Below are positions 9,253-11,864 of a DNA stretch of 64,000 nt, piece by piece. Position 1 is the first letter of the stretch; each line of letters starts with the position of its first letter. Source of the stretch: Thermophilibacter provencensis (GTDB taxonomy: Bacteria > Actinomycetota > Coriobacteriia > Coriobacteriales > Atopobiaceae); contig NZ_JAUDEA010000011.1 in assembly GCF_030372065.1 (NCBI RefSeq), positions 1 to 64,000 on the forward strand, in the 5' to 3' direction. The translations under genes and the position numbers were made by a program. Under the pieces are notes generated by a model. It was not told the DNA's origin. It made no database searches and was given only the letters and a program-made list of their open reading frames with translations.

Positions 9253-9287
9253 GGGGTGCGCCCGGGGGCATCCGGGCGCGCCCCTTT
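9253..9287 (+). terminator. intrinsic terminator after the 8610-9221 gene
   Basis: A 13-bp stem (9253-9265 pairing with 9272-9284, one G-U pair) with a 6-base loop GGGCAT is followed by TTT. It separates the membrane-protein genes from the methionine transport locus, so the latter must have its own promoter. Confidence 0.85.
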
Positions 9288-9347
9288 GTGACTTTTCGAG
9301 AATGTAACGCCATTCGCGGCGTGACGCCCCTCCCGCGCGGACTCTGC

Positions 9348-9360
9348 TACCGTAGTCGGC
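9348..9360 (+). promoter_or_regulatory. candidate -10 box placing the transcript start at the leader ATG
   Basis: TACCGT (9348-9353) matches the actinobacterial TANNNT -10 pattern. The 7-base gap to the A of ATG 9361 would put transcription start exactly on the start codon, giving a leaderless message, which is common in Actinobacteria. A clear -35 is not seen (GTGACG lies at 9321-9326, 21 bases away). No Shine-Dalgarno sequence precedes 9361, which agrees with leaderless translation. Confidence 0.5.
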
Positions 9361-9462
9361 ATGGATTATGCTGCCGCACAGATCGCGATGATGGCCATGA
9401 TGGTCATGGAGATGCCCAAGCCCGGGCACTCTGATGCGCTGTGCCTCGAGGCCGTGCGCTAG
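9361..9462 (+). CDS. methionine-rich leader peptide (33 aa), candidate attenuator of metNIQ
   Basis: A short reading frame, MDYAAAQIAMM then AMMVMEMPKPG, ending CLEAVR and a TAG stop, 79 bases before metN. Seven of 33 residues are Met, and six of nine (positions 10-18, MMAMMVMEM) are consecutive or nearly so. Met is normally about 2-3 percent of residues and has one codon, so ribosome speed here would depend on charged Met-tRNA. The position just before a methionine importer operon is that of amino-acid leader peptides such as trpL or the Cys-rich leaders of mycobacteria. The stop is followed by GC-rich sequence that can pair in more than one way (for example GGGT 9481 region with CACCC 9506 region), but I see no classic T-run terminator. 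Mechanism is inferred. Confidence 0.6.
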   Translation: MDYAAAQIAMMAMMVMEMPKPGHSDALCLEAVR

Positions 9463-9541
9463 GAGACCGGGCGCCTTCACGGGTCACCTCCGGCGGGAGA
9501 GGGCCCACCCTCATCCCCACTCATCGAGCGGAGCCTTTCGC

Positions 9542-10291
9542 ATGATTCAGATCAAGAACCTCTGCAAGTCCTACGGCGCGCAGCCGGATGCGCCGCACGC
9601 CCTTGACGACGTCTCCATCGACATCGCCGACGGAGACGTCATGGGCATCATCGGCATGAGCGGCGCCGGCAAGTCCACGCTCGTGCGCTGCATCAACCTG
9701 CTCGAGCGGCCCACCTCCGGCCAGATTCTCGTGGACGGCCAGGACGTCACCGGGCTCACGGGCGCCGCGCTGCGCGCGTATCGTCGCCGCGTGGCCATGA
9801 TCTTCCAGAACTTTGGCCTTCTCGCCCAGAAGACGGTGCTCGCCAACGTGTGCTTCCCGTACCTGGCCGCCACGGGCCGCGTCACCGCGCAGAACCGCGA
9901 GCGCGCCCTCCAGCTGCTCGACCTCGTGGGCATGGCGGACCGGGCGGACTCCTACCCGAGCCAGCTCTCCGGCGGGCAGCAGCAGCGCGTCGCCATTGCC
10001 CGCGCCCTCGCGTGCGAGCCGGAGTACATCCTCTGCGACGAGGCGACGAGCGCCCTCGATCCGGCGAGCACCAACACCGTGCTCAAGCTCCTGCGCCAGA
10101 TCAACCGCGAGACCGGCGTCACGGTCATCGTGATTACCCACTCGATGGGCGTGGTCGAGAAGATCTGCAAGAACGTCGTCGTGCTCGAGCACGGTCGCGT
10201 GGTGGAGCGGGGCAGCGTTGCCGACGTCTTTGCCGCGCCGCAGTCGCAGGCCGCCAAGGTCCTGCTTGAGAGGGTTGATTGGGATGCCTAG
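9542..10291 (+). CDS. metN: methionine ABC importer, ATP-binding subunit, without the C-terminal regulatory domain
   Basis: ATPase of the D/L-methionine importer. Walker A GMSGAGKST, Q-loop MIFQNFGLL, signature LSGGQQQR, Walker B ILCDEATSALD and the H-loop VITHS are all seen. The stretch NFGLLAQKTVLANVCFP is characteristic of MetN. The protein is 249 residues, whereas E. coli MetN is about 343; the missing part is the C-terminal NIL/C2 domain that binds methionine and shuts the transporter down. Feedback at protein level is therefore probably absent, which fits control at the RNA level by the upstream leader. Start ATG 9542 follows GCGGAG. The stop overlaps metI by eight bases. Confidence 0.93.
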   Translation: MIQIKNLCKSYGAQPDAPHALDDVSIDIADGDVMGIIGMSGAGKSTLVRCINLLERPTSGQILVDGQDVTGLTGAALRAYRRRVAMIFQNFGLLAQKTVLANVCFPYLAATGRVTAQNRERALQLLDLVGMADRADSYPSQLSGGQQQRVAIARALACEPEYILCDEATSALDPASTNTVLKLLRQINRETGVTVIVITHSMGVVEKICKNVVVLEHGRVVERGSVADVFAAPQSQAAKVLLERVDWDA

Positions 10292-10964
10292 CCTTTCCGA
10301 GTTCTTTGCCGAGTACGGCGAGCTGCTGCTCCAGGGCACCGGGGAGACGCTCGTGATGCTCTTTGTGCCCACGCTCATCTCGTATGTGCTGGGCATCGCC
10401 CTGGGTGTGGTGCTCTACCTCACGGCTCCGGGCTCGCTTCGCCCCGTGCCGGCGCTCAACGCCGTGCTGGGCTGGGCGGTTAACATCTGCCGCTCGTTCC
10501 CGTTCATCGTGCTCATGGTGTCCATCATCCCGCTCACGCGCCTCATCATGGGCACGGGCTCGGGCATCCTGGGCACCATTCCGCCGCTCGTGCTCTCCGC
10601 CACGCCCTTCATCGCGCGCATGGTGGAGCAGTCCCTCGCCGAGGTCCCGCACGAGAGCGTGGAGGCCGTCGAGGCCTGCGGCGCCTCGGTGCCCCGCGTG
10701 GTCTTCTCGGCCCTTCTGCCCGAGGCCCTGCCGTCTTTGGTGCGCGGCGTTGCCGTGGTGCTCATCGCGGTTCTTGGCTACACCGCCATTGCGGGCGCCG
10801 TGGGCGCGGGCGGCCTGGGTGACATTGCCGTCCGCTACGGCTACTACCGCTACCAGTCCGACGTCATGATCGCCGCGGTGGTCATCCTCGTGGTCATCGT
10901 GCAGCTGATCCAGAGTGCGTGCGACCTCTTGGCCCGCCGCGTCGACCATCGCTCCAACAGCTAA
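10284..10964 (+). CDS. metI: methionine ABC importer, permease subunit
   Basis: A 226-residue permease with five or six membrane helices that forms the MetI dimer pore. The EAA loop contacting MetN is visible as HESVEAVEACGASVPRVVF. Other family landmarks are GETLVMLFVPTLISY near the N terminus, INICRSFPFIVLM-like NICRSFPFIVLM, and YTAIAGAVGAGGLGDIAVRYGY near the end. The start at 10284 lies within the metN end, showing translational coupling. metQ follows after 57 bases containing a hairpin. Confidence 0.94.
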   Translation: MPSLSEFFAEYGELLLQGTGETLVMLFVPTLISYVLGIALGVVLYLTAPGSLRPVPALNAVLGWAVNICRSFPFIVLMVSIIPLTRLIMGTGSGILGTIPPLVLSATPFIARMVEQSLAEVPHESVEAVEACGASVPRVVFSALLPEALPSLVRGVAVVLIAVLGYTAIAGAVGAGGLGDIAVRYGYYRYQSDVMIAAVVILVVIVQLIQSACDLLARRVDHRSNS

Positions 10965-10978
10965 TACATCACGTCTTT

Positions 10979-11005
10979 CTGCAGGTCGGAGGCACCCTCC
11001 TGCAG
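10979..11005 (+). promoter_or_regulatory. intercistronic hairpin before metQ
   Basis: CTGCAGG (10979-10985) pairs with CCTGCAG (10999-11005). It sits between metI and metQ, just before the metQ ribosome site (GGTAAGGAGAAG). With no T-run it is not a terminator; it could protect the metQ part of the message, since binding proteins are needed in excess of the permease. That role is inferred. Confidence 0.45.
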
Positions 11006-11021
11006 GGTAAGGAGAAGAACC

Positions 11022-11864
11022 ATGAAGCTCGCAGATGCCAGCGTCTCCCGTCGTGCCCTTCTTGCCAGCCTTGCCGTCGCTGCCGTCGGCTCGCTTGCTG
11101 CCTGTGGTGGCGAGGAGAAGCCCGCGCACGAGCACGGCACGCTGAGGATTGGCGCCTCACCGAGCCCACACGCGGAGATCCTGAACGACTTTGCCGCCCC
11201 GCGCCTCGAGGAGAGGGGCATCGCTCTCGACGTGGTCGAGTACACCGACTACCTCAAGCCCAACGAGGACGTGATCTCCGGCGAGCTTGACGCCAACTAC
11301 TTCCAGCACATCAACTACCTCAACAACTACAACGAGGAGAACGGCTCTGACCTCGTGAACGCCGGAGCCATCCACTACGAGCCCTTTGGCATGTTCCCCG
11401 GCCGCTCTGACAGCCTCGACCCCATCGCCGACGGCGCCACGATCTCCGTGCCCAACGACCCCACCAACGAGGGTCGCGCACTGCTTTTGCTGCAAGACCT
11501 TGGCCTCATCGCGCTCGACGAGGCGGCCGGCGTCACCGCAACGGTGAACGACATCACCGACAACCCCCATAACCTGCAGTTCCTCGAGCAGGAGGCAGCG
11601 GTTTTGCCCTCGACGCTCGCAGACGTGGACTTTGCCATCATCAACGGCAACTACGCCATCGACGCCGGCCTCTCGCTCGCCGATGCCGTGGCGACCGAGA
11701 ACGCCGACTCCACGGCCGTTCGCGAGCAGTACGTCAACATCATCGCCACGCGCCCCGAGCTCGAGGACGACGAGTGCGTCGTCGCTCTCGTGGAGGTCCT
11801 CAAGGGTGACGACTTTGCGGCGTACCTCCAGCAGACCTTTGGTGAGTCCGTCCAGGCGTTCTAA
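11022..11864 (+). CDS. metQ: methionine-binding lipoprotein (NlpA/MetQ family)
   Basis: A 280-residue extracytoplasmic binding protein that delivers methionine to MetN-MetI. An N-terminal signal with twin arginine-like SRRALLAS leads to lipobox LAAC (Cys near residue 28), so it is lipid-anchored. Mature-domain motifs of the NlpA family are seen: LRIGASPSPHAEIL, YTDYLKPNEDV, LDANYFQHINYL, the signature YEPFGMFPG, VPNDPTNEGRALLLLQ and FAIINGNYA. The gene is the third of the metNIQ operon. Its stop overlaps the stop of the convergent gene on the other strand by four bases. Confidence 0.94.
   Translation: MKLADASVSRRALLASLAVAAVGSLAACGGEEKPAHEHGTLRIGASPSPHAEILNDFAAPRLEERGIALDVVEYTDYLKPNEDVISGELDANYFQHINYLNNYNEENGSDLVNAGAIHYEPFGMFPGRSDSLDPIADGATISVPNDPTNEGRALLLLQDLGLIALDEAAGVTATVNDITDNPHNLQFLEQEAAVLPSTLADVDFAIINGNYAIDAGLSLADAVATENADSTAVREQYVNIIATRPELEDDECVVALVEVLKGDDFAAYLQQTFGESVQAF

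Follow-up and report, generated by a model that had tools for sequence, protein, structure and literature searches.

Ahead of the methionine import operon metNIQ of Thermophilibacter provencensis lies a short reading frame rich in Met codons, and the question that it raises is whether it acts as a regulatory leader and, if so, what it senses and how. SAM riboswitches and T-boxes account for most of what is known of RNA-level control of methionine genes, and a leader peptide that reads methionine codons is a rarity, since the start codon is itself Met and sensing has to rest on the elongator Met-tRNA. Here, we analyzed the locus within a window of 64,000 nt (the whole stretch of DNA under study) and compared it with its relatives in the class Coriobacteriia. 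On comparative evidence, we put the probability at roughly 80% that the leader is a ribosome-mediated attenuator sensing methionine supply via Met-tRNA.

The Met-rich frame and its promoter

The leader frame encodes the peptide MDYAAAQIAMMAMMVMEMPKPGHSDALCLEAVR, which starts with MDYAAAQIAMMAMMVMEMPKPGH and has seven Met residues, including the start. The cluster MMAMMVMEM is the sole stretch with at least six Met in nine residues among the 125,396 residues of all six frames of the window, and, as such a Met density is unique there, the frame is not a product of chance. The preliminary description had given 33 codons, seven Met (six of them in MMAMMVMEM), and 79 bases between the frame and a methionine importer; our reading of the sequence agrees throughout, the leader TAG being followed after 79 nt by the metN ATG at 9542. 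The metN-metI-metQ genes themselves span positions 9542 to 11864. MetN had also been described as lacking its feedback domain, and this is confirmed for the 249-amino-acid protein: the C-terminal regulatory region is missing, since the match to the TIGR02314 model ends at position 240 of 343, and no C-terminal Pfam domain was found.

Table 1. Features of the metNIQ leader and operon, in positions of the window
Feature	Position	Strand	Basis or remark
Extended −10 element TGC-TACCGT (hexamer 9348-9353)	9345..9353	+	Sequence; element recurs in relatives
Leader peptide ORF of 33 codons and a TAG stop, probably leaderless	9361..9462	+	ATG 9361, TAG 9460-9462; homologous leaders in relatives
Met codon cluster MMAMMVMEM, six Met	9388..9414	+	Last regulatory Met codon at 9412-9414
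Helix P1, GCCCGG (9420-9425) with CCGGGC (9467-9472) around variable stem P1b; overlaps ORF end	9420..9472	+	
Hairpin P2, conserved apex CGGCGG (YGGCRG), variable stem	9481..9506	+	8 covarying pairs
Alternative hairpin P4, P2 3' arm plus downstream C-rich stretch (CCCUCaUCCC)	9495..9517	+	Predicted; tentative
Shine-Dalgarno of metN (GAGCGGAG)	9526..9533	+	Kept in nearly all metN-type loci
metN, 249 aa, without C-terminal regulatory domain	9542..10291	+	Pfam ABC_tran; TIGR02314 positions 1-240 of 343
metI, permease	10284..10964	+	PF00528; best NCBIfam model NF008049 MetI
metQ, substrate-binding lipoprotein	11022..11864	+	PF03180; MetQ/NlpA family

The frame had further been proposed to be leaderless, with a −10 box placed for initiation on its ATG, and the metN-type leaders of relatives lend support to this. 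In the window, the −10 hexamer ends 7 nt ahead of the leader ATG. A TAnnnT motif is present upstream of the ATG in 71 of 72 metN-type leaders, a count for which the start was picked among in-frame ATGs with the presence of TAnnnT in mind, and the gap between motif and ATG is 7 nt in 58 of those 71. The extended form TGnTAnnnT precedes the ATG in 45 of the 72 leaders versus 1 of 2,857 other ATGs at the same loci. Further, a Shine-Dalgarno-like tetramer is absent from 71 of the 72 leaders and present in one. Transcription starting on the leader ATG fits both the 7-nt spacing and the missing ribosome-binding site. A generic promoter scan, which needs a consensus-like −35, did not list the 9348-9353 site.

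The sequence TGTGAC-TTTTCGAGAA-TGTAACG (9287-9309), some 40 nt ahead of the −10, resembles, by eye, an imperfect dyad. Near the equivalent position, genus-mates carry what looks by eye like a better dyad (CGTAACACTTTTCTAGATTGTTACG in L002), and GATAACCAG/TATCGATA dyads were likewise seen by eye in a similar position in other genera. The 9287-9309 dyad is a possible transcription factor operator, additional to the leader. A GC-rich inverted repeat at 9256-9300 (GCGCCCGGGGGCATCCGGGCGCGC), followed by T-rich sequence, comes after the upstream membrane-protein gene and is likely a terminator parting that gene from the metN transcript.

Distribution of the leader in Coriobacteriia

The metI gene was located in 121 genomes of the window's family (its own genome counted), and the DNA upstream of metN was read; the class was then scanned first with an exact pattern and next with a covariance model trained on 22 leaders. 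In 25 of 298 genomes, ATGCCCNAGCCCGGGCA is present as an exact string in a single copy, and its reversed counterpart occurs once in total across the same 298. The covariance model matched in 97 of 398 genomes, in single copy except for one genome with two weak marginal matches. All of the strong matches inspected lie upstream of metN; they belong to two families of one order, that of the window and one that we take to be the Coriobacteriaceae with Collinsella.

Altogether, 85 distinct leaders were tabulated, and in every one the ATG runs stop-free and in frame to the final Met codon. The distance from the ATG to the last Met codon takes nine different lengths among them, each a multiple of three. 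Met makes up 28% of the leaders in 35 representatives (540 codons), where ATG is found 152 times in frame, against 4 times and once in the two remaining frames; therefore, selection acts on Met as a codon and not on a nucleotide motif. Met codons are few in some genera, such as g29, with two after the start. The preliminary description had let its reading hinge on conservation of the frame in relatives, and the frame is indeed kept before metN in two families, plus one case in a third; a Met-rich in-frame leader also stands before metY in several other families of the class. Comparison of genomes thus brings out the frame, its Met enrichment, and its promoter spacing as conserved features of these leaders, which span dozens of genera, together with the helices P1 and P2 and a fixed spacing, both described below.

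The metY form came from weak model matches in five other families of the class, which proved to be real leaders. In the 11 loci read, the gene that follows encodes a protein of 430 to 450 amino acids of the O-acetylhomoserine aminocarboxypropyltransferase family (metY). The upstream open reading frame (uORF) of this form, found in other orders of the class, has a GGAGG ribosome site (Shine-Dalgarno site MMMDMMMTQPGS) and encodes M...FVMMMDMMMTQPGS...GRL; the same P1 base comes next. In 257 Gb of bacterial and archaeal genomes, only 12 contigs matched the metY form, with Coriobacteriia, Anaerosomatales, Actinobacteria, Actinomycetota, or Actinomycetes in their titles. The leader lies upstream of both metN and metY and is thus common to two unrelated methionine genes, one for import and one for synthesis; by this comparison, it appears to be linked exclusively to methionine genes.

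Not every metN locus carries the leader. None was found directly before metN in L053, L044, and L049, and in the first two of these the DNA just upstream of metN resembles the end of metQ. In L025, L026, L028, and L030, metNIQ is present and the P1 core is not recognizable, with short promoter-plus-ATG remnants visible, which suggests that the leader was lost or diverged strongly. Weak model matches in other families (L140, L141, L144, L146, L150, and L151) and in another class (L172) were rejected as false, as they lacked the leader architecture or lay within protein-coding sequence. With the R1 model, no convincing match was obtained outside the class in a 296-genome sample of the phylum, the best outside match being protein coding.

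RNA structure and the proposed mechanism

The preliminary description overlooked that the leader also contains a conserved RNA structure, P1 and P2, that belongs to no Rfam family. A cmscan search against Rfam (E ≤ 1; leader region and six relatives) returned weak chance matches only, with no SAM riboswitch and no T-box. In an alignment of 84 sequences, which was fitted to the model, every cell of P1a is paired (100%), standard pairs fill 95.3% of pair cells, and changes on both sides occupy 144 cells versus 37 expected; all five covariation measures lie above every shuffle (0/500), and the pairing drops to about half when the partner is slid by one column. Because of that fitting, we added an alignment-free swap of halves between species, in which own halves gave −14.3 versus −9.4 kcal/mol for swapped halves in P1b and −15.8 versus −9.5 in P2, each with 0/2000 permutations.

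With its invariant base GCCCGG/CCGGGC and asymmetric internal loop in P1 and the conserved apex of P2, the structure could be taken for a methionine or SAM riboswitch in which the open frame is incidental. We consider this improbable, as a riboswitch would leave unexplained the 152:4:1 distribution of ATG among frames, the lengths that are all multiples of three, the promoter spacing tied to the ATG, and the separate Shine-Dalgarno site before the metY-form uORF, and as no Rfam family matches. The peptide end invites a different explanation, namely, that M-P-x-P-G stalls the ribosome on free methionine or SAM, comparable to TnaC with tryptophan, and M-P-K/S-P-G-H is indeed highly conserved in two families. 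However, those invariant residues sit on the P1 strand, and P1 pairing survives in relatives in which the peptide has MLKPEH, MLKPKH, a stop after ML, or TQPGS. Where the peptide differs, the pairs are compensatory (GCCCGA/UUGGGC, GCCCAA/UUGGGC, and GCCUGG/UCAGGC), and it is by such pairs that P1 is retained with the MLKPEH and MLKPKH peptides. In L052 (590-700), which has few Met codons, an in-frame TAG separates the last Met codon from P1, so that the peptide is MKNLPTYSSVIVQTQWML followed by a stop, and P1 is retained. As P1 is kept despite a changed or stop-ended peptide, it is the RNA, and not a PKPGH arrest peptide, that is selected there, and we rate an arrest peptide a shade less probable still than a riboswitch. 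Least credible by some distance is a small Met-rich protein with a function of its own apart from attenuation, such as metal binding: the Met- and His-rich composition and the conserved frame would suit it, but the place before metN or metY is fixed, the C-terminal part lies in RNA structure, and length and tail vary.

For the ribosome-mediated attenuator, the sensor half, consisting of the uORF and P1 at fixed spacing, is well supported by the comparison. In all tabulated leaders, the P1 base lies 8 nt from the A of the last Met codon, and for most of these leaders the motif search accepted only that distance. By ribosome geometry, the P1 base lies at the mRNA entrance when the last Met codon is in the A site. 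We infer a leaderless transcript, translation of the uORF, stalling, and a direction of response, as follows. Transcription would start at or beside the ATG at 9361, and a ribosome would load on the leaderless end and translate the Met run; the P1 base, 8 nt past the A of the last Met codon, would then be at about the leading edge of the ribosome while that codon is decoded. With charged Met-tRNA scarce, ribosomes would wait on the Met run, P1 would stay folded, and metNIQ would be expressed. With charged Met-tRNA plentiful, ribosomes would enter and melt P1, the freed CCGGGC(G) strand and P2 would refold, and expression would fall.

The proposal of Met-sensing attenuation by the peptide, made in the preliminary description, is supported for the sensor half; the output step may be a terminator, Rho, or translational control and seems to differ between families. 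The alternative helices are lineage specific, with P3 in one family and P4 in another. In 30 of 33 Collinsella-like leaders, GGGCG of P1 has a possible partner in CGCCU, a conserved sequence immediately downstream of P2 (helix P3), and the ten bases after this partner have a T fraction of 0.41 versus 0.22 in the region; P3 and its T-rich tail would be like a classical attenuator terminator. In leaders of the window's family, pairing would instead involve the C-rich stretch after P2, which has no U-run; the corresponding P4 gave 3/5000 permutations in the comparison of own with swapped halves in this family, and the Collinsella-like family showed no sign of it. Among downstream positions, the freed CCGGG strand finds its best partner in the P2 apex (median within the top 6% of positions; 85% in the top 15%). 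The window leader has no intrinsic terminator, and the C-rich stretch without a U-run makes Rho-dependent termination or translational control likelier in the window's family, with Rho-dependent control being plausible from that stretch. Sequestration of the metN Shine-Dalgarno is not claimed, given that five simulated ribosome positions produced no consistent change in its opening energy and that it showed no covariation with the P2 5' arm (swap test, 160/2000). A kissing interaction between the P2 apex and AUGCCC, noticed by eye, was dropped, since leaders with an altered AUGCCC show no matching change.

A broader and more tentative reading, to which we give slightly less than even odds, is that of a Coriobacteriia-wide family of Met-tRNA-sensing RNAs, in which a near-invariant core (Met run, 8-nt spacer, and P1) would have been combined with different genes, with initiation that is either leaderless or led by a Shine-Dalgarno site, and with outputs that vary by family, including one without an intrinsic terminator or simple ribosome-site sequestration. 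Across many gut genera of the Collinsella-like and Atopobium-like families and their environmental relatives, the comparison shows selection on the frame, on the Met run, and on an undescribed structured RNA. The conserved features yield precise, testable mutations, and L052 offers a natural variant for telling which part matters.

Comparison with known systems

Like the trp, his, and ilv attenuators, the leader combines a short frame and cognate codons with an overlap between the frame and the first of what would be several competing helices; unlike them, it would sense methionine, lacks a U-tract terminator in the window's genus, and probably initiates leaderlessly here. SAM riboswitches (RF00162 and others) control methionine genes in other bacteria, but they match the leader of the window in neither sequence nor structure. 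The SAM-I riboswitch occurs in other genera of the family (above the cut-off in 14 of 61 family genomes), and RF00162 was not found in the window's genome or in three sampled genus-mates. No RNA structures conserved ahead of methionine operons were reported in a 2005 survey of Actinobacteria (PMC1262725).

In design, the leaderless polycysteine uORF attenuators of mycobacteria (Canestrari et al. 2020, as cited in PMC13236596) would come closest among tested systems; they had been predicted earlier in PMC1262725. As far as the citing paper describes them, these share with the present leader a leaderless uORF, a run of cognate codons, a sulfur amino acid operon, and the absence of an obvious terminator, and they differ in reading cysteine instead of methionine.

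The preliminary description knew of no such case in Coriobacteriia. The precedent does lie outside that class, but a leaderless Met leader before metNIQ, named metL, had already been predicted from RNA-seq in Streptomyces lividans TK24 (PMC8079986); in the literature searched, this one unconfirmed Streptomyces annotation was the sole precedent. Like the leader described here, metL is a leaderless short frame with Met codons directly before metNIQ in an actinobacterium, with no clear terminator. Unlike it, metL has few Met codons after the start, and these alternate with Cys (CMCRMC). In the Streptomyces sequences that we compared (L173-L183), the frame is conserved in 11 genomes as MTTTSxRxxATEATMTPGARCMCRMCAF followed by a stop, with alternating Cys and Met codons, which suggests that it senses both sulfur amino acids jointly. 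A different hairpin contains the 5' half of this frame, P1 and P2 were not seen, and the downstream MetN-like frame has 352 amino acids versus 249 here. Because the peptide mixes Cys and Met and the fold differs, metL is an analogue at most. Judged from sequence, the leader would work like a leader-peptide attenuator.
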